A DNA stretch of 64,000 nucleotides, from NCBI GenBank assembly GCA_038049695.1, contig CP142452.1:107207001-107271000 (forward strand), given 5' to 3'. Positions 33,501 to 64,000 of this stretch are shown here, in pieces (positions within the stretch are counted from its first letter, which is position 1; every line of letters starts with the position of its first letter). Made by a program: the position numbers and the translations under genes. Source of the DNA: Cinnamomum chago. Its lineage: Eukaryota > Streptophyta > Magnoliopsida > Laurales > Lauraceae. Under the pieces are notes generated by a model. It was not told the DNA's origin. It searched no databases and worked only from the letters and a program-made list of their open reading frames with translations.

Positions 33501-36500
33501 TTAGAGCTCTACCAACTAGCCTCTGGCCAATTTTTCAATCTCCAGAAGAGCCTCCTGAAATTTGACAAATGTGGTCGCAGAAGAAAGCGAAAGATTAGCT
33601 CTACTCTTGGGATTCAAGGGACCTCGGTTCAACTAACTTACTTGGGCATCCCCATTGTATTTGGCACCCCGAAAAAATTTCACTTTCTTCCCCTCTTGGA
33701 CAAAATCAACAAGAGGTTGCAGGTTTGGAAAGCAAAATTCTTATCCTTTGCTGGTCACCTCATTATCATCAGACATGTTCTCTCTAGCATGGCTATTCAC
33801 TTGGCAGCAACCTTCCCTCTCCCTTCGTCCACCTGCAACGCTCTGGAAAGAGCGATGAGACAATTCCTCTCGTCTGGAAATGCAAGCTCCTCCAAAATTA
33901 ACTATGTTAACTTGACCACTGTCTCCCTCCCTAAGGTTGAAGGAGGACTGGGTATACGAAGACTCTCTGAAGTTAATGCTGCTTCTTTCATCAAGCTCGG
34001 TTGGCAAGCTTCTACAGGTAACTCAATCTGGTCATTTTGGTTCAAGAACAGATACTTTAAGCACCATCCCATCTAGAGCCCTGCTAATACCATCTATGGT
34101 TCTTGCAACTGGAAGAAAATAAGAAATCTAGCTTTCAACATCAAACAAGGTAGCACCTGGGTCTTTGGATATGGGCAGGACATAAACGTTTGGAACGATC
34201 CCTGGGTTGACAATCTTCCTCTTTCAGTAAGATTTCCCAATTTCATCTTCCCTCAGGATCAGTTTCTGTCTTCCCTGAACCATTCAGGAACCTGGTCCAT
34301 CCCTCCAAACTTGCCTTCAGAAATCCAGAATTACCTCTCTAAATTCCTCTCCTCCCTCTCCCCAGTTCAATCATCCAAGGACTCTCTCAGATGGAGAGAC
34401 TCTTCCGAAGGTCAGCTCACTCTTAAGGTAGCCTGGCACCGCATTCATTCTAGAGCTACCACTCTGGACTAACCCTCCTTCATCTGGAATGGCATATGTC
34501 TCCACAAAGTCAGCTGCTTTGGGTGGCGCCTAATGCACAACAAGACCCCAACAGAGATACGCCTGAAGCGATTGGGCTTCTCCTTAGCCTCTCGATGTAA
34601 TATTTGTTGCATTGATGAAGACTCCTCAGGTCATCTTTTCTTCTATTGCAAGCAAGCCAAAGCAATTTGGACGTGGCTTTGCCAATCAGCCCAGACAATT
34701 GTCCCCTGCATTCTCTCTGCCTCTTCAATCGGGGAAGCTCTCTCAAGAAGGAACGAATCGGCTGGTAAAAGACATATGGCAACTGTCTTCATTTATGTAA
34801 TTTATTTCCTATGGAAGGCAAGGAACAAAGCTACCTTTGAAGCTAGGAAGATCCCCTTCTCATCTCTTCAGCAGCAACTTCAGGAATACCTCTCTATCAC
34901 CTTGAGGAAAATTTCAAAGCCCTTCTGCAGTAATCAACTAACTTCTCTTCTCCTATGCCTCAGACTTCCAGTAGGGTGATCTGTTTCTGGGCAGTCTTCT
35001 TTTGAAGTTTTCTATTGCAGCTCTCCTTCGCCACCAATTTTGTTCCGTTTTGCAGCTACTGCCTTTTGTATCTCCCCTTCTCCTCTTTGGTTTCCTTTTT
35101 GCTTTTGTGTCTTTGTTTCTGGGGGTCTTCCAGAGACCTATTTTTATTTCCCTTCCCCTGTTTCTGCTCTCTTTTCTTTAATGAAATTACCCTTATTGCA
35201 AAGAAAAAAAAAAGAGTATCATTTATTCCTACGTATCCCCTTATTTGTTTCCATTCACATGTTTGTTGTGTCACTTCCATATCATGCATCACATTATGTG
35301 CGAGTACATATGATTAGGCCCTTAACAAAAATTCAGGTGCGGTACATACAGGAACCTATTCGGGTCAGGGTTTAGGTACAAGTCCTTATTAGTAATTCAT
35401 GATCTGGTCCAAGTACAATATGGACCTGTCCCAACCTAACATGTCTTCATCTGCATTGTTGAGTGGCGGTGAATTAAGATCAGAAGGTTCATCTTACATA
35501 TCATAAACATTTTTTTGCAGCTCCCATAGTCAAGGCAAATAATCAATATCCAGAAATTGGTTCCTTGCCTTATGAGAATAGACAGTTTAAATACGTTGAA
35601 GTTATCAGTATAACCAACAATTTCCAGAGGTCCATTGGCAAAGGAGGGTTTGGGACAGTTTACCATGGCCAGATGACTAATGGCACTCAAGTTGCAGTGA
35701 AGATGCTCTCTCTACGATCGATCAAGTCCCCTTGTCCAGGCTCTAAAGAATTTCAAAATGAGGTGAGACTAAACCATTACTTATGCCAATAAAGTGATAT
35801 TAGGCTGCTAATAGAATTGTTTGATCATCAACTTTTACTGGATGAATATCTGTTGAGCAGATATCAAATTATCTAATTAGCTTTTCTAGGATACTCCCTC
35901 ATTTCTTGTAGGCTGTTCTGTTTGATGTAAGATTGATGCATGCATATGAATGATACGTTAGTGTTGCTGCTGAAGTTTTGACATATGGTTGGGATCTGTG
36001 TTGCAGGTTCACCTCTTAATGAGAGTTCATCATAGAAACTTGGTCCCTTTTATCGGTTATTGTCAAGAAGACGGTAACATGGCCCTAATATATGAGTACA
36101 TGCCACAAGGACACTTAGGAAGCCATCTCTCAGGTATCAAAATCTTTCATATTTTATCCATTTCCCCGACTATTACAAATATATTGTCCTCTATCATCAT
36201 CGTCATCGTAGTCATTGAAGGCAAAAGTAAGCAGAACATGCTAACACACTTGGAATAAATAACCGCACGCGGTCATTCAAATTCTGGATTAAATTAGGGA
36301 ATAGCTAAGGGTTAGAATTTGGACAAAACTTTGAGGCCCTTAACATAATATCTCCCTGGATAGGAAGGTTCCCATTTCTTTTTCCTTTTTCCTTTTTTTT
36401 TTTTTTTTTTTTTGAACAGGTGAATCATATATAGGAAGACCTTTCAATACCTACCCCATCAATGATTGCCATGTTTCCAAGTGGCCCAACTGGCTGGATG

Positions 36501-38181
36501 GTATCTTGTAGAGGAATGACTAGACCATTCCTAGGGGATGATGCGTGTATAGAGAGAGAGAGAGAGAGAATAAGGAGAGAATAAGAAGAATTGGGGACTA
36601 AGACCAGATGAGATTAATTGGTAACTTAGAAGAATATACTATTTAGAGGAGCTATTTTTTATATATGCAAATAATAATGGATTGTTATTGTCACAGGCAG
36701 CAATGCAAATGCACTAAATTGGGACCGACGCCTACGTATTGCATTGGATGTTGCACAAGGTGAATGTGACTGAATTTATCTGTTTTCGTTTGTCTTGTTT
36801 GTTATTATTTTCCTTCTGTACTAATGTCTTTGATGGTTGGTTTGAATTTATACATAGGATTGGAGTATTTGCATAATGGTTGTAAACCACCAATAATTCA
36901 CAGAGATGTGAAGACGGCCAATATCCTACTAAACGAAAGATTAGAGGCCAACATAGGAGACTTTGGGTTATCCAAAGTTTTCAGTGATGACTTCACCCAT
37001 GTTTCAACAGCAGTCAAGGGAACCTTTGGATATCTTGACCCAGAGTAAGTTTCCGCTCACATGAATTTGCTCTGGTTTACCTTGCAAGTGAAACCTTGTT
37101 AATTTTCTTTGAGGTCATGCATTGCTACACGGACTGCCCATAGTTGAAATCGAGATATTTTCACCTTTCATGGGGTGAATGTCCATTTCATAGCCTTAAC
37201 TCGGACAGCAAATGGAAATATCTTATCTACATTTTTTCTTTGGATGACTATATCCAAAAGCCCGAATGTATTTGATAGGTTATGGGCACCACAATCATCA
37301 TCCTCAGTGAAGGAGAGGCCGATTCCATGCTATTTTATGAGAACAACCATAAAAAGGAGCCGAAAAGGAAGAACCCAAGTATAACAGAGTATGGCCATTG
37401 ATTTATTTGTTCCTTTTTCAAATGGAATGTGAATTGATTAATTTCCTACATTGGGATACATTATGGATCATACCTTACCAACAGCATGTCCCCAGGGTCA
37501 CCAATATGGATAAGTGATCAATGGGCCTGCTTCTTGATACTCACGGCTGCAATTGAAGATTCTTCACTTGTAGCTGATTTGGGTCTGTTTGGATGAGAAG
37601 AAAACCTGGAGTACATAGAGGCAGAGAAAACTGTCCGCTGCTTCAAATTGTACTGTATAAAATTTACTCCACATTCAAATTTGTAGTTCTTTCTCACATC
37701 ACCTGAGATTTTTTCAGAGCTAACTTTCACTGATGATAATTTTAATCTATATAGGTATTGCAATTCCAATAATTTGACAGAGAAAAGTGACGTCTATAGC
37801 TTTGGAGTTGTTCTATTGCAACTGATCACAGGCAAGTCTGCAATAGTGCGGATCTCGGTTTCTGAGCGGATAAGCTTAATTGATTGGGTAATTTCTATGG
37901 TTGTGGGAGGGGACACAAGGGATGTGATTGACCCAAAGTTAGAAGGCAACTATGACATCAACTCCATTCAGAAAGTTATAGAAATTGCACGTGCATGCAC
38001 TAAACAAAAATCAGTAGAGAGACCGACCATGAAAGACGTGGTAGTCGAGTTGAAGGAGTGCCTGGGAAATGAGAAAGCCGTTGAAAGTGCCCTTGAAAAT
38101 GCACCTGAAAGTGGTGTGTTCATGCACAGTGGACCAGTACAAACTACCTCTGAGATTTTATCGTCTCTATCCGCTAGGTAG
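21561..38181 (+). CDS. Malectin/LRR receptor-like Ser/Thr kinase (LRR-I type), copy B
   Basis: Thirteen exons join in phase to 898 residues: 21561-21630, 24372-24918, 25603-26114, 26883-27024, 27117-27188, 27931-28002, 28091-28171, 28468-28622, 35521-35762, 36007-36133, 36697-36759, 36858-37044, 37755-38181. All junctions checked are GT-AG. The order is signal peptide (1-22), malectin-like ectodomain (about 25-370), three LRRs, one per 72-81-nt exon (about 424-498), membrane helix (about 521-542), kinase (about 585-860). The kinase has GKGGFG (590-595), VAVK Lys611, αC Glu631, HRD 709-711 and DFG 729-731, so it should be active. It is expected at the plasma membrane; LRR-I relatives include Arabidopsis IOS1 and FRK1/SIRK, several tied to defence, but the ligand here is unknown. 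Exon 3 has an 11-residue near-repeat (SWISYG...SWISFG) absent from copy A. Intron 8 holds a LINE. Confidence 0.92.
22572..22699. mobile_element. 128-bp MITE in intron 1 of copy B
   Basis: The eight bases TTTTTTGG flank it (22,564-22,571 and 22,700-22,707), and copy A has a single such site near 6,657. The ends are imperfect inverted repeats ('cctatttggaccaatcaa' against 'ctgattggaccaaacagg'). An 8-bp duplication suggests a hAT-type MITE. Confidence 0.65.
23279..23400. repeat. Tandem duplication in intron 1 of copy B
   Basis: A unit of about 65 bp around 'gggaagactcac' and 'gcactcat(t)gggaatggg' is doubled here and single in copy A (about 7,215-7,275). Open frames across it (23,190-23,477) come from this repeat and are not genes. 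Confidence 0.55.
29519..30562 (+). pseudogene. LINE ORF1 (DUF4283-like), broken
   Basis: A proline-rich N-terminus (29,519-29,776) ends in a TAG. Then comes the DUF4283-like block: [18 protein letters not shown] near 29,957, a stop near 30,100, and '[20 protein letters not shown]' in the frame 30,155-30,562. The usual zinc knuckle after the 'VVYES...P..C' stretch is reduced to scattered Cys and His ([15 protein letters not shown]). The protein would bind LINE RNA. It cannot be made from this copy. The low-complexity C-terminal part continues to about 31,437 in another frame. Confidence 0.75.
31498..34979 (+). pseudogene. LINE ORF2: endonuclease, reverse transcriptase, zf-RVT (broken)
   Basis: ORF2 opens at 31,498 with the AP-endonuclease start '[12 protein letters not shown]'. 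A TAG at 31,642 interrupts it, and the frame continues with 'LGDFNTIL', 'ARLDRALVN' and 'SDHSPILL'. Stops follow at 32,272 and 32,728. After 'NLKHNFS' (about 32,870) the expected 'SPGPDG' segment is missing and the text resumes at 'FIPKSKSP' and '[16 protein letters not shown]', so about 150-250 bp were deleted, with a frame change. RT motifs are '[10 protein letters not shown]', '[13 protein letters not shown]' and the FADD catalytic box. A TAG at 33,492 and one after 34,070 follow. The zf-RVT domain ([18 protein letters not shown]) lies at about 34,595-34,650. Confidence 0.85.
36548..36570. repeat. (GA)n microsatellite in intron 10 of copy B
   Basis: A run of alternating AG of about 20 bp in the 563-bp intron between exons 10 and 11. 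A poly-T stretch lies about 150 bp upstream, near 36,390-36,414. Confidence 0.7.
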
Positions 38182-41985: not shown

Positions 41986-42178
41986 TGAAAGTCCTTGGAT
42001 CCTAACCCTAGAGGGGGGGGGGGGGGTGAATAGGGTGTGCTACAAGTATGACCAATTTAGACCAATTTTAATTTCTTAAACTAAACTAGTCACATGTGAT
42101 GATAAATCAAACAATATGCGGAAGCTAATAAATGAATCACCACAAGCATGCACCACAACACCAAGGTTTATAGTGGTT
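41986..42178 (-). repeat. Remnant of the 3' LTR, 193 bp
   Basis: It is identical in layout to the start of the LTR at 45,254 (TGAAAGTCC, the G-run, 'gtttatagtggtt') and then breaks off. About 1.75 kb of LTR plus the polypurine tract have been deleted. A 15-bp direct repeat, AGCTGGACAAGTCTT, occurs near 42,181 and 42,209 beside the break. Confidence 0.75.
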
Positions 42179-44045
42179 TAAGCTGGACAAGTCTTCAGCT
42201 CCCCCTAAGCTGGACAAGTCTTGAAATCTTCTTGGATGCTCCTTCTCTTAGCTTGGGCTCTTAGGCTCTTTTCTTCAATCTTCTTGATGCTTGGTGCTTG
42301 ATCATTCTTCAAGCTTTCTTTCCATCTTCCTCTCTTTAGCCAAGCATCTTCTTTAGCTCCAAGCTTTCTTTCTTCTATTTGCTCTCCCCCTTTGACCATG
42401 CCTCTCTCTCCCTTTGGCAAGATATGCATTCTCTCCCTTTGTAGAAGATCATACACAACTCTCTCCTTAGGAAGCTTGGACATTCTCTTCACCCTTCTTG
42501 CGAACTTGAATTCTTTCTCCCCCTTTGATGGATAGGAGATCTTCGAGTACTTGAACTCTCGAACTCTCTCCCCCTTTGCCATTAAATTGCAAAGGTACCT
42601 ACACACATGAACTAAGGAAAATACCTTTAGTAGCACCTGTTAACAAATGAAATCGAAAAAGAAATACGTAACAGGCTATCATGTATGGAAGTTATCTCTA
42701 AGGGCTCAAGGCAATCCAAGGGTAAATTTGATCAAAACTAATACTTCCTATGAATGTTTACACTCCCCCTCAATCCATTCTCTTCTTTTGTCAAACATTT
42801 GACAAGATATAACTATTTGGTTCAAGATATAGATGGTTTAACCAAGTGAGGGTCAACTTCAAAGAAAGGATTAGATTCATTTAACTATAAAGCACAATAT
42901 GATCAAATTACCAAAAGAAAGCAAGGTCTAATGGGAAAAGCAATCATGGATATCAATTGGAAAAACAAAGAGTACCAATTGAGATTTAAGGATATGACTA
43001 TTAAATCAATCACTCTAAAATGGATTTAAGAGTATAACTATTAGGAAAAATCCAAATTAGAGCTATCCATGATGCAATTGGGTTTACCTAACATAGCATC
43101 AACTAATTTAACTATGAAAATCATATGCTATGAAAGTTTTGAACTCATTTCATTCAAACATTAAATGTGACTATTATGTGCAAGAATGAGTGAAATGAAA
43201 TTCAAGCATGAAGCCAACCTCAACTAATAACCAACCAATATTATGAACACATAAACATGGTGGTCATGGATATAACTATAAGAGCAAAAGAGGTGGCAAT
43301 TATGAACATTATGATGCTAATGGTGTGTGCCATGGAACAATCATATTGCTTATTAAGTTCAATCCAATGCACACATGGTCTATCACATACACAAGATAAG
43401 ATATCAATTGGATATGAAATCAATGGAAAGTTATACCAAATGAAACCAATTGACTATGATAACATGAATAAAAGCAAGGATGTGACAAACTTCCATCAAG
43501 CATCATTAATGCATATTCATCACTTTTAAAGATATAACTATTGAGCAAGGTGATGAATAAGAGAAATTGCAATGCAAAAAGATATGACTAGGTAAAGCAT
43601 GCAATTCTCAAAGTGTCCAAATCATATGAATTCAACTACTAAGATATCCATCAACCAACATAAATGTAAGGAATGGATTTCAAAGAGATTCATATGATCA
43701 AGAACACTACATATGAAGTTGAAACATGTATAAGGATGACACCAAGAGAATCTACATGAATCAACATCATAACCATCCATAAATAAATGACTATAAGGCA
43801 AAAAGGATGGGTTTGGGTTCTAGTATGGTTTCTACAAATATTACTAAGATCACAACCATACATAGAACCAATGGTCATTTGCATATAAAAAGAATAACTA
43901 AATAAGCAAAGATGCAAACAACATTCATTTCCATTTCTAAGATAATGAAACCAAAAGAAAAGGAAATTAATGAGAATCATGGAACATGCTAAAAAGATTA
44001 TAACTAATGAGGTTATGGAGCATTTCCATCCAAACAATCTTCAAA
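42179..44045 (-). other. Non-coding interior with a recurring 'gatataactat' motif
   Basis: Between gag and the 3' LTR no pol-like frame is found. The words gatataactat, gatatgactat or agtataactat recur roughly a dozen times at irregular spacing (for example near 42,808, 42,990, 43,030, 43,268, 43,531 and 43,584). Lysine/arginine-rich frames on the minus strand at 42,205-42,636 show no domain. The stretch 'ctccccctttgccatt' near 42,570 resembles the polypurine tract of the sister element in reverse complement. Confidence 0.5.
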
Positions 44046-45152
44046 TCATTTTGGTAAACAAAATCCAACAATGAGAAGCTTTTTGTTAATAGATTCTTTG
44101 ATTTTTGGTTTAACTTGTTTAAGCCTTTTAGAATCTATCTTGGGAGACTCCTTGTTAATTGGTTTAACTTGTTTAAGCTTTATGGAGTCTTCCTTGGTTT
44201 TTAGTGTCTTACCCTTCAAGTTTGATTTTACTTTCTTTGGTTCAAAGATGGGATTAGACACATTGCTTCTTCTTAGTTTGCACTCAAACCTAAAGTGTCC
44301 TTCAATGCCACAATAATTACATTTAGACATGGGCAAAGAAGTGTGAGTGCTAGAGAATGAGGACTCACCTTTCACAAAAGTGTTGGTGAATTTAGGGTCA
44401 TATGACATATTCCTATTAAATCCAAGACCCGTCCTATCTCCATGTGATTTACCCAATTTAAATAATTTTTCAAGTCTTTCTTCACTTTGGGTAAACTTGC
44501 ACTCATACTTTTGTTTATATCCTTCAAGTTGAGTGACTTTGGTTATAAGGATTGAATTTTCATGTTTGACTTTAGAAAGCTCATTTTCAATTTCCTTATA
44601 ATTGCTTAGCTCTTCATTGGCAAGTTTTAATTCAAGCTTTAGTTCATTAACAACATTAGATCCAAGCTCTTGGGTTTTTAACTTACTTTTAATCAACTTG
44701 GCTTCTAAATTGTTAAAGTCTTTGTCTTGCCTTTTTATTTGATCTCTTAGAATTAAACTTTCCTTATTGACATTGTCATAATCCATCTTTAATTCTTTTA
44801 GTTCATCTTGAATGTTAGATAGATTATTTAAAGAGATCATGAACTTAGAGTCTAGACATTTTATTACTTCTTCTTTCTCTCTAAGTTCATCTTTTGAAGA
44901 GTCTAGCTCTTTGGTTAGATTCATAGATTCTTCTCTTAAACTTTTGTTTCTTTTATCAAGCTTTGAAGATAATGTATATAATTCATTATAGGCTCGTTGA
45001 AGATCATCTTCATCATACTCATTTTCTTCCTCTTTTGAATCAAATTGATATTCATTTAATTGAGGGTTTGAATCTCCAATAGAAGGAAGAATGAGGGGTC
45101 TAGAAGAATCTACAAAATCTAGCATAGTGGAGTCCATTCTAATGATTTTCAT
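44046..45152 (-). CDS. Gag-like coiled-coil and zinc-knuckle protein of the LTR element
   Basis: This is an uninterrupted frame of 368 residues. An acidic N-terminus is followed by a long charged coiled coil (about residues 50-235). Then come the 'LGKSHGDRTGLGFN' segment, which parallels 'CSQKSHFDRSSLGYDH' of the element at 1,858, a CX2CX4HX4C knuckle (CNYCGIEGHFRFEC, about residue 280), and a Lys-rich tail. It corresponds to the second half of copia gag frames; the UBN2 domain and first knuckle are absent. It starts 102 bases from the primer site. It is the only frame in the element and looks translatable, so it may act in trans with proteins of an autonomous partner. Confidence 0.75.
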   Translation of the reverse strand: MKIIRMDSTMLDFVDSSRPLILPSIGDSNPQLNEYQFDSKEEENEYDEDDLQRAYNELYTLSSKLDKRNKSLREESMNLTKELDSSKDELREKEEVIKCLDSKFMISLNNLSNIQDELKELKMDYDNVNKESLILRDQIKRQDKDFNNLEAKLIKSKLKTQELGSNVVNELKLELKLANEELSNYKEIENELSKVKHENSILITKVTQLEGYKQKYECKFTQSEERLEKLFKLGKSHGDRTGLGFNRNMSYDPKFTNTFVKGESSFSSTHTSLPMSKCNYCGIEGHFRFECKLRRSNVSNPIFEPKKVKSNLKGKTLKTKEDSIKLKQVKPINKESPKIDSKRLKQVKPKIKESINKKLLIVGFCLPK

Positions 45153-45238
45153 ATAAGCACAACTCTAGGGTTTTTGACTCTAGGTTTTTACACCTAATCA
45201 AGAGTTCCAACTACTTGATCCTATAAGATAGAGCACTT

Positions 45239-45251
45239 GGCTCTGATACCA
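45239..45251 (-). other. Primer-binding site (minus strand)
   Basis: The plus-strand ggctctgatacca is the reverse complement of TGGTATCAGAGCC, complementary to initiator tRNA-Met. It is two bases from the LTR end. This fixes the orientation of the element. Confidence 0.9.
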
Positions 45252-45519
45252 ATTGAAAGTCCTTGGATCCTAACCCTAGAGGGGGGGGGGGGGGTGAATA
45301 GGGTGTGCTACAAGTATGACCAATTTAGACCAATTTTAATTTCTTAAACAAAACTAGTCACATGTGATGATAAATCAAACAATATGCGGAAGCTAATAAA
45401 TGAATCACCACAAGCATGCACCACAACACCAAGGTTTATAGTGGTTCGGCCTCAATGCCTACGTCCACTACCGGCTTGTGATCCAATCACCCCACCGGAT
45501 TTCCACTATTTATGCTTTT

Positions 45520-45725
45520 ACTAGGCTAAGTAATAACCCTTACAATGTTGCTTTTCAAGGCTAAACAACAACCTCTCAATGTGCTTTTATAGGCTAAGCA
45601 ATAACCTTTACAAAATGCTTTTCTTAGGCTAAGCAATAACCTTACAAGATGCTTTTCTTAGGCTAAGCAATAACCTTACAAGATGCTTTTCAAAGGCTAA
45701 GCAATAACCTTTACAAATATAGATT
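45520..45725. repeat. About 35-bp tandem repeat inside the LTR
   Basis: Units of the type 'ggctaagcaataacc' + 't(t)acaa.atgctttt' recur about six times. Equivalent arrays are in the LTRs at 52,262-52,465 (about six) and 56,898-57,035 (four or five). The copy number varies between LTRs. Confidence 0.85.
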
Positions 45726-46540
45726 TCTCTAAGAAGGTGTCTTTTCAAAAGAACACTCTAAGAGATACAATTTAAAGCTCAATGAAATTGCCTCTTGAAT
45801 AGGCTAATATGAAAGATTAATACAAACTCACACAAACACTCTATGAATGCAAAAGTGTATGCTCATGATGTGTGTGTGTGATGACTTCAATCAAGTTTAA
45901 AAAGAAAGCTTAATCAAATATATGCTTGAAGCATTTCAAAGTTCAAAGCTCATGAAAGATTTGATTGAAGTCTAATGCAAATCACATGTATGAAAAACAA
46001 CTTGTAAATGACATGAAAATCAAAGACTCACGAGTTGTATGAAAATGACTAACTTAGAACATGTGATGCATGTGCAATGTTGTTTTCAAAAACCAAATAG
46101 ATTTAACTAAAGTTCAAATGAAAGAAAACAACAAATTAGGTTTCAACCAAGACAAAGAATCATGCATTAAAGGAAATCAAAGACTTTGGCTAAGCATGAT
46201 TAAGTAAGGTTTAAAAACAACTTGTATTGAAACCAAGGTGAAGAATCCAATCTTAATTAGATCAAAGATTAGGAGAAGAATGGATTCAACACAGCATAGT
46301 TATCATGTATAAAATCATTTACCAATAGCTTAAACAAAACATGAAAACTATGATTAACAAAGGTAGAGCTTACTTGGTGGTTTAACTCATTAATCCAAGC
46401 TTTAGCTCTCCTAATGACCTTCTAGCCTTTCCAACTTCATCCCCTTTCAATGGCTCCAAAATGGTCTCAAAGGTTCATGTGTCAAGCCTTGAAAAAGGTT
46501 GGAAATGAATGGACTTTATAATGAAAAAGTGTCCAACGGC

Positions 46541-46682
46541 TAGTTCTCTCGGTCGACCAGGAAGGGGTCTCGGTCGACCTAGACCACACAACGGGCAGAA
46601 AAGTTACCGTTGGTGCTTCAGGTGACAGTCACCCTGCAGTGTCCTCGGTCGACCGAGATACAGGTCTCGGTCGACTGGCGAC
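46541..46682. repeat. Four GGTCGACC palindromes in the LTR
   Basis: GGTCGACC cores at 46,551 and 46,572, CTCGGTCGACCGAG at 46,644-46,657, and GGTCGACT at 46,669. They form two pairs separated by about 70 bp that include 'ccgttggtgcttcaggtgac'. The same layout is in the LTRs at 53,125-53,270, 57,695-57,835 and (inverted) 63,740-63,870. Confidence 0.8.
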
Positions 46683-47822
46683 ACTGCCGGTTGAGTGACC
46701 TGTTGGGTCCAAAAATCCAACTTTTGCACTTTTGAAGGTATTTCTTTGGGGGGATTTTTGGGCCACTAAACCAAGCTAGAATACATGTTTTAAGACATTA
46801 TAAGATGTTTAAAAACATGAACACACAAAGCCTAAGATGATTCAAAAGTTTAAAACCAAAGACTAGCTTGATTTGTTAAAACTCTTTTCAAATGAAAATG
46901 CATACAAAAATGATTCTTTTTGTGAAGAATGTATGCAAGGCTCAAACCTAAATTCTCAACATGATTTTTCAAATATAATGCACAAAGAATTAGGTTTTCA
47001 AAAGAGTTTTGGATTCTAAAAACAATGCATCCAAGTTTAGAACCAAAACATGCATAAAACAAATACTTTTCCAAATCTTAAAAGCTATGCATGTATAAAA
47101 CCAGATTTCAAGGTTTTCTAAAACAATGCATGTGAGAAAATTCAAATGATGCTAAAGTGCAAATGCATCCATCAAATTGCAAATACAAAATTCCTAACAT
47201 ATCCCACTAATCATGGGATATGATTTGAAGAAAGGGTAAATTAGATACTTTAGATTTTCAAATTTGGAAAAAGGACCTTTCACACTATAAAAGAAGATTG
47301 TGGACCTAAGGCAATAAAGTGAAATGTTCAGGGACCTCTCGCCGAATCCCCCTAAAGTTAAATAGGCCTGACGGTCTAAAATTTCAACTTTGCTATGTTT
47401 GAATGTGTCTGACCCGATAGATGAAGTAATGTTGTTACTCATATGTACTCCATTTCACTTCAACTCTAAATACTTCAATTTCCTTGAGTGAAAAGTGAAT
47501 TTTACTTTAATCCTTAACTTTACAATAAGCATCCAAATGTAGTGTAGTGAAGTATTCTACTTTAACTTCGTTAATACTTCTCCTCCACTGTACTCCTTAT
47601 GTGAAATCCATTTTATTTTACTCCACTCATCATTTATCCAAATAGGCCCTAAAGTGGTATTTAACGAACTAACCGATTCGACCCATTAATGACACGAACC
47701 CTTTAAGAGGCTATCCGAACCTGTTAATATCGTGTGGGCTCGTATCGTGTTAACGGGTGTGTGACATTTTGACAGCCCTATTTTTACAGATTAATGTCCT
47801 TTCACTCGAGCAATATTCATCG

Positions 47823-51862: not shown

Positions 51863-54800
51863 ATGGCATCAAGCTTGGTTCAACCCCAGATTCCGAAGCT
51901 GACAAAGGAGAACTATGAGAATTGGAGTATCCAGATGAAGGCATTATTTGGATCGCAGGATTTATGGGAGATTGTCACTGAAGGATACGTGGAGCCCACT
52001 GAAAGTCCTTGGGATCCTAACCCTAGAGGGGGGGGGGGTGAATAGGGTGTGCTACAACTATGACCAATTTAGACCAATTTTAATTTCTTAACATAAATTA
52101 GTCACATGTGATGATTAATCAAACAATATGCGGAAGCTAATAAACAATCACCACACAAGCAAGCACCACAACACCAAGATTTATAGTGGTTCGGCCTCAA
52201 TGCCTACGTCCACTACCGGCTTGTGATCCAATCACCCCACCGGATTTCCACTATTTATGCTTTTTACTAGGCTAAGCAATAACCCTTACAATGTTGTTTT
52301 TTTAGGGTAAACAACAACCTCTTAATGTGCTTTTAGAGGCTAAGCAATAACCTTTACAAAATGCTTTTCTTAGGCTAAGCAATAACCTTACAAGATGCTT
52401 TTCTTAGGCTAAGCAATAACCTTACACAATGCTTTTCTTAGGCTAAGCAATAACCTTTACAAATAAAGATTTCTCTAAGAAAGTGTCTTCACAAAAGATC
52501 ACTTTAAGAGATACAATTTAAGCTCTAATGAAATTGCCTCTTGAATAGGCTAATATGAAAGTTTAATACAAATTACAAACATACACTCAAATAAGTTAAA
52601 GTGTGTGCACAAGTGTATGAATGTGTTTCTTCAATCAATTTTAACAATGAAGCTCTTAAATGAATGCATGATGCATTTTAAAATCAAAGTTTATAAAATG
52701 ATGATTGAAGAGAAAACTAATCACATAAAAGACTCACACAACTTTGAAGAAATGAAACAACCAAGTTGTATGAAAGTTAAAGTCTAAGAACATATGTGAT
52801 TAGGATAAGAGAGTATGCAAACCAATCTAATTTACCAAGAAAGATATTGAGTTTGCAAAACAACTCTTTAAGGGCTTGAAATCATGCATAAATGAAAATA
52901 CAAAGGATTTGAACATGCATGGATTTCATTTGAATGGAAATCAAAATAACTATAAGGATGTACCTTTTAAAAACTCATGAGTTTGATTTCCAAATAGCCC
53001 TCTAGCCTTTCCAAGTTCTTCCCCTTTCTTTGGCTCCAAAATGGTCTCAAAGGTTTATGTGTCAAGCCTTGAAAAAGGTTGGAAATGAATGGACTTTAAA
53101 GCACAAAACAGTCCAACGGCTAGTTCTCTCGGTCGACGTAGAAGGGGTCTCGGTCGACCTAGAAAGCACAACGGTCATAAAAGTTACCGTTGATGCTTCA
53201 GGTGACAGGGACCCTGCAGTGTCCTCGATCGACCGAGATACAGGTCTCGGTCGACCGGCGACACTGCCGGTTGAGTCCCTGTTGAGTCCAAAAATCCAAC
53301 TTTTGCACTTTTGGTGGTATTTCTTTGGGAGGATTTTTGGGCCACTAAACCAAGCTAGAATACATGTTTTAAGACATTCTAAGATGTTTAAAAACATGAA
53401 ACACCCAAAGCCTAAAATGATCAAAAGATTAAATCCAAAGGCTAGCTTGATTTGATAAAACTCTTTTCAAATGAAAATGCATACACAAATGATTCTTTTT
53501 GAGATGAATGTATGCAAAGCTCAAACCTAAATTCACAAGATGATTTTCCAAATATAATGCACAAGGAATTAGGTTTTCAAAAGAGTTTTGGGTTCTAAAA
53601 CCATTGCATCCAAGTTTAGAACCAAAACATGCATAAAACAAAAACTTTTCCAAAACTTAAAAACTATGCATGTATAAAACTAGATTTCAAGGTTTCTAAA
53701 AACAATGCATGTGTGTGAATTCAAATGATGCTAAAGTGCAAATGCATCCATCAAATTGCAAATACAAAATTCCTAACACCCACTACAGAGCAAGAAGCTG
53801 CGTATACTCCGGAACAGAAGACTGTCCTAAAAGGTCAGAGGAAGAAAGACAAGAAGGCTTTATTCCTACTATATCAAGGGGTAGATGAATCAACCTTCGA
53901 GAAGATTGCTGAAGCACCATTTAGCAAAAAAGCATGGGAGACCCTAAGCACTATCTTCAAAGGTGTTGATTGGGTCAAGAGGGTTCGTCTGCAAATGCTC
54001 CGAGCAAAGTTTGAAGCCACTCACATGAAAGAAGGTGAGAATATTTCTGATTATTTTTCACGGTTGCTAGTAATAGTAAATCAAATGAAGAGAAATGGTG
54101 AAAAGATAGAAGATATTAGAGTTGTAGAAAAAGCATTGAGATCCCTCAACCAAATTCGAGCATGTGGTCATGGCTATTGAAGAGTCCAAAGATTTGGAGA
54201 CTCTCTCAATAGAAGAATTAGTGGGATCACTCCAAGTCCATGAGCAACGTATGCAAAAGAATAGTGGCTCCATGGTCCTGGAACAAGCACTAGAGTCAAA
54301 ATTGACTCTAAGTGAGCAAAAGTTCTGTCGCGAAAGTTTGAAGCGGGGCGGTAGAGGGAAAGGGGGAGCAAATACTCAAAGACAAGGGCAATCTCAATCA
54401 AGAAGCTCCAACAATCATGGAAGAGGAGCTGGCCGAGGTGGATTCACCCGTGGTCGTGGTAATTCAAGAAGTGTCCAATGCTACAACTGCAACAAGTTTG
54501 GACACTTTGCCTCGGAGTGCTGGAGCAAACCCGCGGAACGGGAGGAGAGATCTAACTTCGCAGAAGCAAGAGATGAAGAAAAAGAATTATCCACAGTTCT
54601 CCAAGCACAAGAGGAAGGCAATGGCCAGGAAAATGTCTGGTATCTGGATTTTGGTGCAAGCAACCACATGTGCGGGAAGAAAGAACTCTTTGAAGAGCTT
54701 GCGGAAGACGTCAGCGGAAAAGTAAGCCTCAGAGACTCATCAAAGTTTCAGGTACAAGGTAAGGGAAATATTAAGATTTATAAAAAAGATGGTGTGCCTG

Positions 54801-56641: not shown

Positions 56642-58317
56642 TGAAAGTCCTTGGATCCTAACCCTAGTGGGGGGGGGGGGGGGGTGAATAGGGTGCTCTA
56701 CAAATTATGACCAATTTAAAATTATATGAAGATAAACAAGTCACATAAGATGATTTACCAAACAAGATGCGGAAGATAAGAAAACAAGCACCACAAGCAA
56801 CCACCACAACACCAAGGTTTATAGTGGTTCGGCCTCAATGCCTACGTCCACTACCGGCTTGTGATCCAATCACCCCACCGGATTTCCACTAACTATGCTT
56901 TTTACTAGGCTAAGCAATAACCTTTACAATGTTTTTTTTCTAGGCTCAACAACAACCTTTACAAGATGCTTTTCAAGGCTAAGCAATAACCTTTACAATG
57001 TGCTTTTCTAAGGCTAAGCAATTACCTTTACAAAGATGAATTTTCTCTAAGAAGGTGTCTCTTCAAGAACACTCTAAGAGATACAATTTTAGCTCAAATA
57101 AAATGCCTCTACATAGGCTGATATGAAGGTGTAATTCAAATCACAAACATACACTAAAACAAGCTAAAGTGTGTGCACAAGTGTATGTATGTTATACTTC
57201 AATCAAACTCAACAATGAAGCTCTAAAAGGTATGCTTGATGCAATTTAAAAATAAAGCTTTAGAAGATGATGATTGAAGGTGAATGCTAATCACATGAAG
57301 AAATCAAACAACTTAAAGAAAAGATCTAAAACAAGTTGTATGAAAAGTAAAGTCTAAGAACACATGTGATTTAGGCATGAGAGTTTGCAAACCATTGTTA
57401 ATATACCAAAGATGATAATAAGTTTTGTAAAACAACTCTCTAAGAACTAGAAATCATGCATAAATGGAAATACAAAGATTTAAACATGCATTGATTCTAA
57501 TTTGAATGGAAATAAAAAAGATTAGTAATGTGTACCTTTTAAAAACTCATGTATTTGATTTCCAAAAAGCTCTCTAGCCTTTTCACTTCATTCCCCTTTC
57601 CTTGGCTCCAATATGGTCTCAAAAGTTCATCTATCAAGCCTTGAAAAAGGTTGGAAATGAATGGACTTTATAACAAAAAACAGTCCAACGGCTAGTCCTC
57701 GGTCGACCTAGAAATAGGCCTCGGTCGACCTAGACCACACAACGGGCAGAAAAATGACCGTTGGTGCTTCAGGTGGCAGTCACCCTGCAGTTGTCTCGGT
57801 CGACCGAGATACAGGTCTTGGTCGACCGGCGACACTGCCGGGTGAGTGCCCTGGGACCAAAAATCCAACTTTTTCTCATTTCAAAGTTTTTCCTTGGGGG
57901 ATCTTTTGGCCACTAAATCAAGCTTGAAAAACATGTTTTAAAGATTCTAATGGTTTTTAAAACATGAACATAAAAAGCCTAAAATGATTTGAAACTTTAA
58001 ACCATAGGCTAGCTTGATTTGATAAAACTCTTTTCAAATGAAAATGCATACACAAATGATTCTTTATGTGAAGAATGTATGCAAGGCTCAAACCTAAATT
58101 CTCAACATGATTTTCCAAACATAATGCATAAAGAATTAGGTTCTCAAAAGAGTTTGGGTTCTAAAACATGCATGAATCAAATTCATTTAAAAAGCATGTG
58201 TAAATGCATGAAAGAAACCAAGATCCAAAAGTCAAAACTTAAGAGCTTATGTGTGTGATCATTTCAAAGTGAAAGAGAGTGCATCCATCAACAATTGCAA
58301 CAACCAAGGGCCTAACA
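56642..58317 (-). repeat. 3' LTR, 1,676 bp
   Basis: It runs TGAAAGTCCTTGG...GGGCCTAACA in plus orientation and carries the G-run (about 56,669-56,685), four to five 35-bp units and the four GGTCGACC sites. It differs more from the LTRs at 45,254 and 52,000 than those differ from each other, for example at its right end. Confidence 0.88.
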
Positions 58318-58333
58318 ATCTCCCCCTTTGCAA
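58318..58333 (-). other. Polypurine tract
   Basis: On the minus strand TTGCAAAGGGGGAGAT ends exactly at the LTR start TGTTAGG. Position and composition are as expected for the plus-strand primer of an LTR element. Confidence 0.85.
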
Positions 58334-59061: not shown

Positions 59062-60270
59062 CTAGACAGAATCTGGAGGAGAAGGAGTCATGGTGTCATC
59101 ATGTCGCCTACAGCTCTTGGCGATGCTAGATATATACTTCAGGGTCTTTTTCAATATCCCTGAGGTCTCTTGACGATACTCATGAAACTCGGTCCTCAAG
59201 GAAACAACCTCCTACTCCAAGGATGTCAAGCGCCCATCTACAGATGTCAAGCGCTCATCTACAGAACGACGAAGAGGTGGTTGAGGCTGACGAGGTTGTC
59301 GCTGCTGAGTAGGCTGGACAGGCTGAGTCTGAGATGACTGGGGAGGAGGAGGCTGACGCTGATCTGCCATAGCTACGTCTGCAGCCTCGACTAAATCATC
59401 ACCTTCAGGAGGAGGAGGAGGAGGAAGCTTCATCAGTTGTAAAATTTTCTTGTTGAAGACCGTGGTGGCTATAGGTCTTTCTGATGAAGGCACAGCCACA
59501 CCAAAGGAACTGGTGAGCTGAGAGACAAGGTACCCAAAGGGGGCTGCACAAGGCTGAGAGCCAGTGGCCACCCTGATGATGTGATGGATGATCAATGAGG
59601 GCAAACACATGGGAACTCTATTGATGACATTATATAGAATGTTCGCCATGTATGGGGTAACCTCAGTCTTGTTCCCTTTACGCGGATAAACTGAATGAGT
59701 GAAAATGATATGAATAATCTGCAAGGGAGGAATCAAGGAGGACGCTTGAAGAGAGTTATTTGCGAACCATTCAACATTTTTGCCACAAATAGCTGTGGTG
59801 ATTGACTCTCTATCCTCAAGTTGAATGACCTCATTAATAAACCTGGGGCCATTTGATCTAGGAATTCCTATTAGAGAGGATATCCTATCAGGGGTAATGA
59901 CCTCTTCGCCCTCAGAAGTTCTGACTGAAAAGGTATTCAAAGTGGAGGCGAAGATGGACTTATAGAAATTGAAGACAGATGAGGAGTAAGTCTTGCCACT
60001 CCATGTTAGGACATTACCCCAACCTATGGCCTCTAGGATAGCAGGCACTCTATAGGGAGCAAGATCCTTGACAATACAGAATTTCTCCACTATAACACCC
60101 TTGCTCCTAAAGGATTTAACTGATGGAGAGGGAGAAGGAGCAGGGATTAAAACAACCTTTGGAGGGGTACTGATCTCCGGAGAGGTGGAGTAGGACCTAC
60201 GGGATGAGGAGGCTTCATTTGTTTTAGATTTCTTGGGAGGCCTCCTAGCAGTTTGCTTAGTCCTGGCCAT
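59062..60270 (-). CDS. Retrotransposon-borne ORF with an N-terminus identical to the histone H3 tail start
   Basis: The frame from 60,270 encodes MARTKQTARRPPKKSK...; residues 1-9 equal histone H3 including the initiator Met, with Arg in place of Lys9. After a Ser/Pro-rich linker (about 20-60) comes a globular region (about 60-270) with 'AILEAIGWGNVL', 'FYKSIFAS', 'EEVITPDRISSLIGIPR' and 'MCLPSLIIHHIIRVA'. It resembles the 'putative plant transposon protein' domain often found in such elements (assigned from memory, no search run). A Pro/Gln stretch (about 280-330) and heptad-like repeats 'SVDERLTSVDGRLTSLE' follow. A TAG at codon 353 (59,212-59,214) interrupts 49 further in-frame codons before the stop at 59,062. 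It lies downstream of gag in the same orientation. The function is unknown. Confidence 0.7.
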
Positions 60271-61488
60271 TTGAAATTTGAAAGGAAATGCTCAAGACAG
60301 CAGGAAAAAGGTACCAAAGAAGGAAAGCAAAACAGCCCACTAAGACAGCCTATAAACAGTGTGAAAACACACTTAAATCAGTCAAAAGAGGAAGAGAGAA
60401 GAAGGCTGGAAAGGGTAGGACAAATTGCCAGAGAATGAGGTCTTACTGGGCACGGGAATTTTCAACATCAGAGACTAAACAGAGGTAGTTCTGAGTGAAA
60501 AAACTGTTTTAGGCAAATGATCAAACAGCTGGTGTGCTGTGAAAGGAGTTGAAGGCAGCACATCTGAGTGGGGTCAGGAGGAAAGCCAAAAACGGCTACA
60601 AGAGATACATGGAAGAGAAAGTAACACACAACACACAGAAAACAAAAAGAAACAAGCAACAACAGAGAGCAGACGCCACGGCTGGGAAGGGGCAGACGAT
60701 GGGAGCACAGGTACAGTGACGAAATCCCAGTGAATGGGCGACTGCACTGATGAGGATGGAGAAACTGATCATGAGAGAGAGAACCAGAGAAGGGAGGAAG
60801 AAGGAAGGAGCAGAAGCAGAAGAAGCAGCAAGCAGGGAAGAACAGCAGCAGGAGGTCTCGGTCGACTGGCAGAGAAGGAAGAAGGAAAAAAAAAAACGTT
60901 CTGATGAAAACAGAACTAAACAGCACCCAGTTGTATTAAGTGGCTGGACGCTGTGGTCTCGGTCGACTGGGACACTAATCCCGGTCGACTGGGAACACTG
61001 AGTCAGAGACCAATCTGACCAAAACAGGGGAAAAACATGGGAAAAAAATACAAAAGGAATGCATTAACCCCTGATCCCCAGCAATCACACAAGTTTAAAA
61101 ACTTATTAGAAAAGAGATTTAAAAAAAAATCAATTCTAACATTATACCTTTTGAAGAAAAGAAGGCTTGTGTGATCAAAAACAGTTTTCAAAACCATTTA
61201 AATTTGAGAAAAACAAAAGTTTAATTTTGAAACCACTCAAAAATAACCATTTTGAAAAACAAATCAATTGATTTAGAAGATACAACATTTCAAGGCTTTT
61301 TTCAACACAATTGATCATTAATCATGCATATAAGCAAATAATTCCATTATAAATCCAAAATGCACAATCATCAAACAAGACTCAATAAAATGAATCTAAA
61401 ATCCTAAAGAAATACTAAGAGAGTAGAACCAAGACCAACTAAGCATATGACTATGAGAAAAGGGTTGGTCTCATCTATCTAAGAAACC
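60271..61488 (-). other. Spacer between gag and the H3-tail ORF
   Basis: No pol-like frame. A pyrimidine-rich minus-strand frame (60,468-60,926) is low complexity. GGTCGACT sites occur at about 60,860, 60,960 and 60,980, which ties this spacer to the palindrome motif of the LTRs. Confidence 0.55.
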
Positions 61489-62877
61489 TTAGTAATTTTC
61501 TAAAGGTCTAACCTTAGGTATCCATCTAAGGTCTTGGGCTTTTGAGGCAATTTTGAAAATTCCACCAACCAAAGGAGATGAGGATTTAACTCTTTTAGAC
61601 TTGTCATCAATTCTTTGAGATTTAACTATTTTAGATTGATGATTAGTCTTAGTAAGTTGGTGTTCCATTTTCTTTTTATTCTTTTCATTTCTTTTAGCTT
61701 TTCTTCCTTCTTTTTGTCTTTTGAATTTTAATTTCAACTTTTCAACCTTTTTCAATAAATCTTTCATTTCTAAAGTTAACGGAGGGAATGAGAGAATATT
61801 CTTTTTGATAGATTTGTTTTTATTTTTATCCTTTTTAACATCTATCTTGGATGACTCTTTTTGAATAGTTTTTCTTTGTTTGAAATTCTTAGAGTCTTTC
61901 TTGGAATTCAAAGTCTTACCCTTCATAGAATTTGTTTTAACTTTCTTTGGTTCAAAGATGGGTTTAGACATATGATTTTTCCTCAATTTGCACTCAAATA
62001 TGAAATGTCCTTCTTTTCCACAATAATGACATTTTGTTTTGGACATATGAGAGAGAGTGCTAGAGAAAGAAGACTCACCTTTCACAAAAGTGTTGGTGAA
62101 TTTAGGGTCATGTGAAATATGTTTATTAAAACCAAGACCCGTCCTATCTCCATGAGGTTTACCCAATTTAAATAATTTTTCAAGTCTTTCTTCACTTTGG
62201 GTAAACTTGCACTCATACTTTTGTTTATATCCTTCAAGTTGAGTGACTTTGGTTATAAGGATTGAATTTTCATGTTTGACTTTTGAAAGTTCATTTTCAA
62301 TTTCCTTATATTTGCTTAGCTCTTCATTGGCAAGTTTTAATTCAAGCTTTAGTTCATTAACAACATTAGATCCAAGCTCTTGGGCTTTTAACTTACTTTT
62401 AATCAATTTGGATTCTAAATTGTTAAAGTCTTTGTCTTGCCTTTTTATATGATCTTTTAAATTTAAAATTTCTTTTTCAAGATCATCATAACTTATCTTA
62501 ATTTCGTTTAGTTCATCTTTGATATTGGATAAGTTATTTAAAGAGATCATGAACTTAGAGTCTAGACATTTTATCACTTCTTCTTTCTCTCTAAGTTCAT
62601 CTTTTGAAGAGACTAGCTCTTTGTTTAGTCTTTTTTATTCTTCTCTCAATTTCTTGTTTTTCTTATTAAGCTCTAGAGATAGAGTGTATAATTCTTCATA
62701 GGCTTGTTGAAGATCATCATCATTTCCATCATATTCTTCTTCTTCATTTAAATCACATTGAGATTCTTTTAATTGAATGTTAGAATCTCCAATAGATGGA
62801 AGAGTGAGAGATCTAGGAGAATCTACACAAAAGTCTAAACAATCTAGCTTAGTGGAATCCATATCAAAAGAATTCAA
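61489..62877 (-). pseudogene. Gag-like coiled-coil and zinc-knuckle frame with one nonsense codon
   Basis: 463 codons from 62,877, with a TAA at 62,635-62,637 (codon 81) and otherwise open. It matches the gag-like protein at 44,046-45,152: same acidic start, coiled coil, 'LGKPHGDRTGLGFN' and knuckle CHYCGKEGHFIFEC. The C-terminus is about 70 residues longer and very Lys-rich, ending 'KVRPLENY'. The nonsense codon means this copy yields only an 80-residue N-terminal piece, or an internal start product. Confidence 0.75.
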
Positions 62878-62963: not shown

Positions 62964-62976
62964 GGCTCTGATACCA
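62964..62976 (-). other. Primer-binding site (minus strand)
   Basis: The plus-strand ggctctgatacca is the same initiator tRNA-Met site, in the same position relative to the LTR, as at 45,239. Confidence 0.9.
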
Positions 62977-62978
62977 AT

Positions 62979-63019
62979 TGAAAGTCCTTGGATCCTACCC
63001 CTAGAGAGGGGGGGGGGGG
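62979..63019 (-). repeat. Stub of the 5' LTR, 41 bp
   Basis: It holds TGAAAGTCCTTGGATCC and the G-run, then stops. The next base starts an LTR of the same family in the opposite orientation. Confidence 0.75.
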
Positions 63020-64000
63020 TGTTAGGAATTTTGTATTTGCAATTTGATGGATGCACACTACACCAAAAATCGGAAATTGGAACGGAAAAGCGTTCCTAAT
63101 CCTTCCGTTCCTAATCCGTTAAAGTGTTCCAATTTCCGTTCCAATTTGGATTAGGAACGGTTGGTACCAAATTGGAACGGAAATTGGAACACTTTAACGG
63201 ATTAGGAACGGAAGGATTAGGAACGCTTTTCCGTTCCAATTTCCGATTTTTGGTGTAGTGGCATTTGCACTTTAGCATCATTTGAATTCTCACACTTGCA
63301 TTGTTTTAGAAAACCTTGAAATCTAGTTTTATACATGCATAGCTTTTAAGATTTGGAAAAGTATTTGTTTTATGCATGTTTTGGTTCTAAACTTGGATGC
63401 ATTAGTTTTAGAACCCAAACTCTTTTGAAAACCTATTTCCTTGTGCATTACATTTGGAAAATCATCTTGTGAATTTAGGTTTGAGTCTTGCATACATTCT
63501 TCACAAAAAGAATCATTTTTGTATGCATTTTCATTTGAAAAGAGTTTTATCAAATCAAGCTAGCCTTTGGTTTTAAACTTTTGAATCATTTTAGGCTTTG
63601 GGTGTTTCATGTTTTTAAACATCTTAGAATGTCTTAAAACATGTATTCTAGCTTGGTTTAGTGGCCCAAAAATCCCCCCAAAGAAATACCTTCAAATATG
63701 CAAATTTTGGGAATTTTGGTCCCAGGCCAGAAACGCAGTGTTCCAGGTCGACCGAGCCTGGCCTAGGTCGACCGAGAACACTACCGTTGGCCATTTTTCC
63801 AACGGTCAGAAAACTAGCCGTTGTGTGGTCTAGGTCGACCGAGACCCCTTCCTGGTCGACCGAGAGACTAGCCGTTGGACTGTTTTGTGCTATAAAGTCC
63901 ATTCATTTCCAACCTTTTTCAAGGCTTGACACATGAACTTTTGAGAGCATTTTGGAGCCAAAGAAAGGGGAAGAAGTTGGAAAGGCTAGAGGGCCATTTG
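63020..64000 (+). repeat. Inverted LTR of the same family, cut by the window end
   Basis: It starts TGTTAGGAATTTTGTATTTG, the reverse complement of the LTR end at 53,778 and 47,199. It can be followed through the GGTCGACC sites (63,740-63,870) to 'tggaaaggctagagggccatttg' at the window end. It is either a nested plus-strand element or solo LTR, or the product of an inversion. A MITE is inserted near its start. Confidence 0.8.
63056..63260. mobile_element. 205-bp CACTA-type foldback MITE
   Basis: GCA lies on both sides (63,053-63,055 and 63,261-63,263), and the sister LTRs have a single GCA at this point. The termini are CACTACACC...GGTGTAGTG. The two 94-bp arms appear perfectly complementary, around a 17-base loop. 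A 3-bp duplication and CACTA ends are typical of CACTA/EnSpm elements. No coding capacity. A transcript would fold into a near-perfect hairpin. Confidence 0.88.

Follow-up and report, generated by a model that had tools for sequence, protein, structure and literature searches.

The window, meaning the whole 64-kb stretch of DNA analysed, carries on its minus strand an LTR retrotransposon whose second open reading frame (ORF) begins, behind the initiator methionine, with the first eight residues of mature histone H3. Read along that strand, the element shows first the tail of a 5' LTR and a primer-binding site, followed by a gag-like ORF; a leader of some 1.2 kb separates this from the ORF with the H3-like start, beyond which lie a polypurine tract and a 3' LTR. 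The individual features are given below, residues of the N-terminus being numbered from the alanine as in H3, and the 115-copy set being the main sample of family members described further on.

56642..58317, minus strand: 3' LTR, 1676 bp, TG...CA
58318..58329, minus strand: polypurine tract AAAGGGGGAGAT ahead of the 3' LTR
59065..60270, minus strand: second (additional) ORF of the element, 402 codons, with an in-frame stop at codon 353 (59212-59214)
59497..60027, minus strand: PF20167 Transposase_32 domain, aa 82-258, E 9.7e-14
60223..60234, minus strand: KKSK at residues 12-15, highly conserved across the 115-copy set; some copies of greater divergence have R, M or Q at residue 13
60244..60270, minus strand: start codon and ARTKQTAR, matching H3 residues 1-8; family members conserve residues 1-6 and 8 and vary at residue 7
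60861..60989, no strand assigned: three GTCGAC repeats of the leader, at 60861, 60962 and 60984, upstream of the ORF; their palindromic core is that of the LTR repeats
61489..62862, minus strand: first ORF, gag-like, containing a single CCHC zinc knuckle and broken by one in-frame stop (62635-62637)
62965..62976, minus strand: primer-binding-site-like TGGTATCAGAGC, two bases past the LTR end
62979..63019, minus strand: visible tail of the element's 5' LTR, 41 bp, the rest cut by an inverted LTR
63020..64000, plus strand: inverted LTR of the same family, start only, sitting in the 5' LTR and leaving the window at 64000

This ORF forms the second gene of an LTR retrotransposon that is pol-less, non-autonomous, recently mobile and of putative Copia type, a carrier that we liken to SIRE/Copia by its presumed primer-binding site and gag layout, with no pol by which to classify it. 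The first-pass annotation had described the frame as a retrotransposon ORF, and this description is borne out by LTRs with TG...CA, a polypurine tract, a gag-type CCHC ORF and the motif TGGTATCAGAGC, which we take to be the primer-binding site. The gag-like ORF matches zf-CCHC at 21.7 bits in the window and at 21.1 bits in the copy at locus L173 (cut-off 20.8), where it is open over 519 aa; among the Pfam models, neither Retrotran_gag_2 nor any capsid-type gag model matched it. No pol gene (protease, integrase, reverse transcriptase) was found, because the two longer frames (at least 150 aa each) in the leader both lack a Pfam match above cut-off. The segment 63020-64000 was considered as the element's own 5' LTR and rejected, its orientation being inverted. 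Within this inverted LTR lies a MITE-like hairpin (63056-63260) with two 94-nt perfectly complementary arms.

Two further copies, L014 with its upstream stretch L173 and L017 with L174, show the same succession of LTR, gag-like ORF, leader, ORF and LTR, likewise without pol; whole 5' LTRs are present in L173 and L174, compared with the short tail visible in the window. Over the compared parts, the LTR pairs are identical at 636/638 positions in the L014 copy and at 619/619 in the L017 copy (99.7-100%), and this near-identity indicates that the element family moved recently. The window copy's 3' LTR shares 90% identity with the LTRs of the L014 copy and 88% with those of the L017 copy. Among the upstream flanks of seven other loci, five extend well into the gag-like ORF, L015 retains no more than the final residues of that ORF, and in L013 the flank runs into a fragment of an LTR. 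The window's element is probably inserted in a Copia element whose other end lies beyond the window, since its 3' LTR ends directly against a Copia pol frame on the plus strand.

The same family is represented elsewhere in the window by a second copy at about 41986-47199, in which the gag-like ORF is present and the PF20167 ORF absent, and by a solo LTR (52000-53778) with CCCAC at both sides, within a plus-strand Copia gag region. Malectin-like and kinase exons at 24332-26176 and 37687-38181 probably belong to receptor-like kinase genes, and LINE-type frames occupy 30104-34979, two of them with endonuclease and reverse-transcriptase domains.

The second ORF begins with M-ARTKQTARRPPKKSKTNEASSSRR, reading M-ARTKQTAR-RPPKKSK. 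As the first-pass annotation had stated, and as the minus-strand translation confirms, its residues 1-8 are identical to those of mature H3 and residue 9 is arginine in place of lysine. The ATG is the first Met codon downstream of an in-frame stop, the start codon being inferred from the sequence; methionine preceding alanine is normally removed. The same annotation held that the remainder is not a histone, which agrees with what was found: PF20167 matches at 52.1 bits, above its curated cut-off of 45, and is the sole Pfam match at E up to 1, with no histone fold detected, and similarity to H3 over residues 9-38 does not rise above shuffled sequences (494 of 2000 shuffles score as high). The same result leaves capture of an H3 gene over more than about 8 codons, which was also considered, unsupported. 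The KKSK tract is NLS-like and may serve as such. A PDB sequence search with the 24 N-terminal residues gave 0 matches, as did H3 itself, the query being too short to inform.

The H3-like match is not peculiar to one copy, since the same N-terminus recurs across a large ORF family in the window's own genome. A degenerate MARTKQTAR pattern has a single match in the window, compared with no match at all in 100 shuffles. Across the 1.06-Gb genome, a MARTKQT pattern occurs at 364 places, some of them true H3 genes, compared with 1 for the reversed pattern, and the octamer followed by AGN occurs at 107 places versus 0; among 20 MARTKQT places not fetched earlier, 17 belong to this ORF family and 3 are true H3 genes (chosen for their codons). 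In genome_contigs (257 Gb, mostly prokaryotic), the MARTKQTAR pattern matches 10 stretches, comprising seven H3 genes (one with an intron, one truncated by a contig end) that are evidently eukaryotic contamination, one Ser variant permitted by the degenerate pattern and two short frames of 28 and 19 aa. The pattern has 0 matches in viral_contigs; relatives were confirmed in neither viral_contigs nor genome_contigs, and plasmids and phages gave no match.

To define how far the start is kept, copies were sampled from the same genome with an ORF query including the N-terminus, and 115 copies, the window's included, were scored out of 1889 candidates. All 114 other copies were fetched, and 107 of them align from residue 1. 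In the resulting 108 rows (one aligned piece per copy, with the window), ARTKQT is exact in 93; residue by residue, T3 and Q5 are each present in 108 rows, K4 in 107, A1 in 105 (the other three having Val), T6 in 103 and R2 in 101. The seven rows that fall short of residue 1 include five with ARTKQT further up, one with ARTKQI and one without the motif, so that ARTKQT is exact in 98 of the 115 scored copies overall. Residue 7 is relaxed in the family (A, W, S, F, V or T), being A in 72, W in 16, S in 11, V in 5, T in 3 and E in 1 of the 108 rows.

A second sample, drawn by domain similarity alone and hence blind to the N-terminus, consisted of 20 new places spread over 150 scored of 991 candidates. 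Exact ARTKQT was read at 14 of these 20 (at one place in another frame, and at another with a stop at residue 7); of the remaining six, two read AQTKQT, one each reads ARTKQA and ARTKKT, one reads ARTKQC and has lost its ATG, and one is degenerate. Further copies, L133-L149 (picked by MARTKQT) and L175-L194, have a readable start in 36 of 37 cases, with R at residue 8 in all 36, K at residue 9 in 2, and residues 12-15 reading KKSK in 21, KRSK in 10, KMSK in 3 and KKAK and KQSK in one each. Strictness between R and K is thus not absolute beyond the 115 copies, as the further copies vary at residues 9 and 13. In divergent copies, ARTKQT and R8 are better kept than the KKSK tract, which for the 17 MARTKQT-picked copies follows from the choice of sample. 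Divergent copies with F at residue 7 are L133, L137, L139, L141, L142, L146, L149 and L189-L194, and many of these read RRESKRSK where others have RRPxKKSK. The first-pass annotation had proposed to test ARTKQTAR for conservation across homologues; an H3-like start is indeed kept family-wide, but the conserved unit is ARTKQT-x-R, residue 7 often being W, S, F, V, T or others. Two outcomes that would have counted against it, random residues at positions 4-9 or a single matching copy, did not occur in the window's own genome.

Selection was assessed by parsimony counts of synonymous and non-synonymous changes on one FastTree tree of related copies from one genome. On internal branches, residues 1-6 show 29 synonymous changes and 1 non-synonymous change (ratio 0.011), compared with ratios of 0.251 for the whole ORF and 0.207 for the PF20167 domain; the sole non-synonymous change is CGA to CAA and is common to 2 tips (merged rows). 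The corresponding synonymous and non-synonymous counts are 6 and 0 at residues 8-9, 9 and 0 at residues 12-15, 3 and 4 at residue 7, and 4 and 7 at residues 10-11, so that the RR pair and KKSK are strongly kept and residues 10-11 are near neutral. On tip branches, which include dead copies, the ratio is 0.150 for residues 1-6 versus 0.365. Among 344 six-codon windows of the ORF, residues 1-6 rank 7th by internal ratio, with stretches within the domain equally constrained, and when all branches are counted their non-synonymous rate places them 44th of 343 (merged rows).

Conservation at the DNA level is not the cause of this pattern, because ARTKQT is encoded by 21 nucleotide versions in the 93 rows and synonymous change at residues 1-6 exceeds the ORF average (merged rows). 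At the seven motif positions that hold R or K, 2 of 756 cells show an exchange between the two residues, versus 331 of 2920 cells elsewhere (counts from related cells, to which we attach no probability), and in the motif of the 115 copies such exchanges are rarer than a charge requirement alone would predict. The comparison of synonymous with non-synonymous change, which the first-pass annotation had asked for, gives strong protein-level constraint on residues 1-6 and on residues 8-9. The first-pass annotation had also cautioned that the match might be inherited within the ORF family; it is inherited, and it is under selection too. ARTKQT is therefore a lineage-specific N-terminus under protein-level selection, and is neither a chance match nor the property of a single copy.

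The restriction to one lineage follows from the other PF20167 ORFs of the genome, of which 20 places, mostly chosen for long frames from 150 scored of 1553 candidates, were read upstream in the frame of the domain; ARTKQT was found at none of the 20. A start is visible at 18 of them (L167 and L171 having none): 15 begin with MAP, 11 of these with MAPKK, and the others with MASKK, MALKK and MPPK. Since these ORFs also start basic, in a different manner, part of the constraint on ARTKQT may represent an ordinary role in nuclear localisation or nucleic-acid binding.

In the window's own genome, an H3 tip thus stands at a predicted true N-terminus and is conserved at the protein level, and the selection on ARTKQT in most copies read suggests that the product may engage host chromatin-reading proteins. 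We tentatively propose, giving the idea a little less than an even chance on sequence grounds, that the ORF product acts as an H3-tip mimic toward a host reader pocket. Removal of the methionine would expose Ala1 at the N-terminus, the basic tract would bring the product into the nucleus, and the ARTKQT tip could then stand in for the H3 N-terminus at a host pocket for H3 residues 1-6, most likely a PHD-type reader by comparison with human PAF15 (VRTK) and the UHRF1 PHD. The outcome might be either the tethering of the element's nucleoprotein to chromatin complexes or a decoy effect that weakens silencing. The distribution of constraint, which ends at residue 6, leaves residue 7 free and resumes with R, agrees more closely with a pocket that reads the H3 tip than with one reading the K9 region.

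Against H3 mimicry, the likeness to H3 stops after residue 8, residue 7 differs from H3 in 36 of 108 rows, and the 18 visible starts of other PF20167 ORFs are mostly basic, so that basic starts are the norm among these proteins. The last point is the main argument for an ordinary basic N-terminus, a serious contender that we hold to be only somewhat less likely than mimicry, in which ARTKQTxRRxxKKSK would be a nuclear-localisation and/or RNA/DNA-binding tail and the identity with H3 a convergence without function. RR and KKSK are constrained as much as ARTKQT in the 115-copy set, MAP and MAPKK starts predominate among the other ORFs (15 and 11 of 18), and a PF20167 additional ORF of a sunflower Athila element has an NLS and is predicted nuclear (PMC11728184). 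What such a tail does not account for is that the uncharged A1, T3, Q5 and T6 are kept while the uncharged residues 7 and 11 vary freely, and that R and K are almost never swapped in the motif of the 115 copies, although a generic NLS needs neither. Residue-specific constraint of this kind would equally be expected if the N-terminus docked specifically onto something other than a histone reader, such as the element's gag-like protein or RNA, or a different host factor, with a modification of T3 or T6 as one conceivable means; the position of the ORF behind the gag-like ORF, in the window and in five of the seven other loci compared upstream, is consistent with this. Such docking leaves the six-of-six identity with the H3 tip unexplained, and we regard it as unlikely.

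Chance, or neutral inheritance from one ancestor of residues not under selection, is the disfavoured explanation and in our judgement a very improbable one. The copies do share ancestry, and some match was to be expected given that any familiar peptide was looked for, but the single non-synonymous change at residues 1-6 against 29 synonymous ones on internal branches, with synonymous change above the ORF average (merged rows), argues against it, as does the 257-Gb scan, in which, histones apart, no frame with such a start exceeded 28 aa.

Around the mimic proposal, a further element of the carrier deserves description. The sequence GGTCGACC occurs 13 times in the window versus 0.13 expected, and by coordinates 13 of 13 lie inside LTRs of this family. 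Palindromic GTCGAC/GGTCGACC repeats are located at 46551-46675, 53132-53256, 57701-57827, 60861-60989 and 63746-63861, positions that fall in the second ORF's leader and in those four family LTRs of the window that contain this part; GTCGAC is paired 20-22 bp apart in the LTRs, and one 22-bp pair lies in the leader. Nine loci were compared, which amount to seven copies because L173 overlaps L014 and L174 overlaps L017. Six of the seven carry the 22-bp pair both in the leader and in the part of the 3' LTR; L013 shows single GTCGAC sites only at these two places. A product that combined the H3 tip with putative binding to GTCGAC in the LTRs and leader could bring H3-tip readers there or repel silencing factors, which would constitute a sequence-specific histone-mimic anti-silencing system; this extension, conjectured from motif positions, we consider doubtful and rather unlikely.

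Additional ORFs are a class whose roles are debated or unknown (PMC7264820), and the mimic proposal, if true, would suggest a function for one kind of them and extend histone mimicry to an LTR retrotransposon. If the mimic works, a selected peptide of six residues would offer a direct handle on the contact between a plant retrotransposon and chromatin, testable against every H3-tip reader. Should the N-terminus turn out to be no more than a nuclear tail, the constraint seen at individual residues still shows that this ORF is needed by the element.

Several known systems resemble parts of this proposal. The VANC anti-silencing proteins of Arabidopsis transposable elements, whose targets often form tandem repeats (PMC5735166, in part), are likewise encoded by elements and act on host silencing, with tandem-repeat targets as the GTCGAC arrays might be here; no H3-like tail is mentioned in that paper's abstract, and in the present family target binding is only conjectured. 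The 3' additional ORF of sunflower Athila 14 has the same Pfam domain, is an extra sense-strand ORF behind the gag part and is predicted nuclear (PMC11728184, in part). Athila 14 is Ty3/Gypsy, whereas the present carrier is pol-less, of Copia-type look, and bears the ARTKQT N-terminus; the word "histone" has 0 occurrences in the main text of that paper (PMC11728184). Among the best matches in the open-licence literature, at the level of titles and abstract openings, no paper on an H3-like N-terminus in a retrotransposon is apparent. The SNAG sequence differs from ARTKQT. The SNAG-domain factors Snail1 and GFI1 are described as H3-tail mimics that recruit LSD1 (PMC12612597), and they share the idea of N-terminal H3 mimicry but are host transcription factors. 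Another parallel is PAF15, a non-histone protein with an H3-like true N-terminus (PMC7060239, PMC8034647, both in part). The UHRF1 PHD binds H3 ARTK and PAF15 VRTK with similar affinity (PMC7060239, in part; for PAF15 also PMC8034647), residues 2-11 of PAF15 having a Kd of 2.2 uM and H3 a Kd of 1.5 uM (PMC7060239). PAF15 differs in being a vertebrate cellular protein with VRTK, whereas the present N-terminus has six residues identical to H3 and belongs to a mobile-element protein whose binding is putative.
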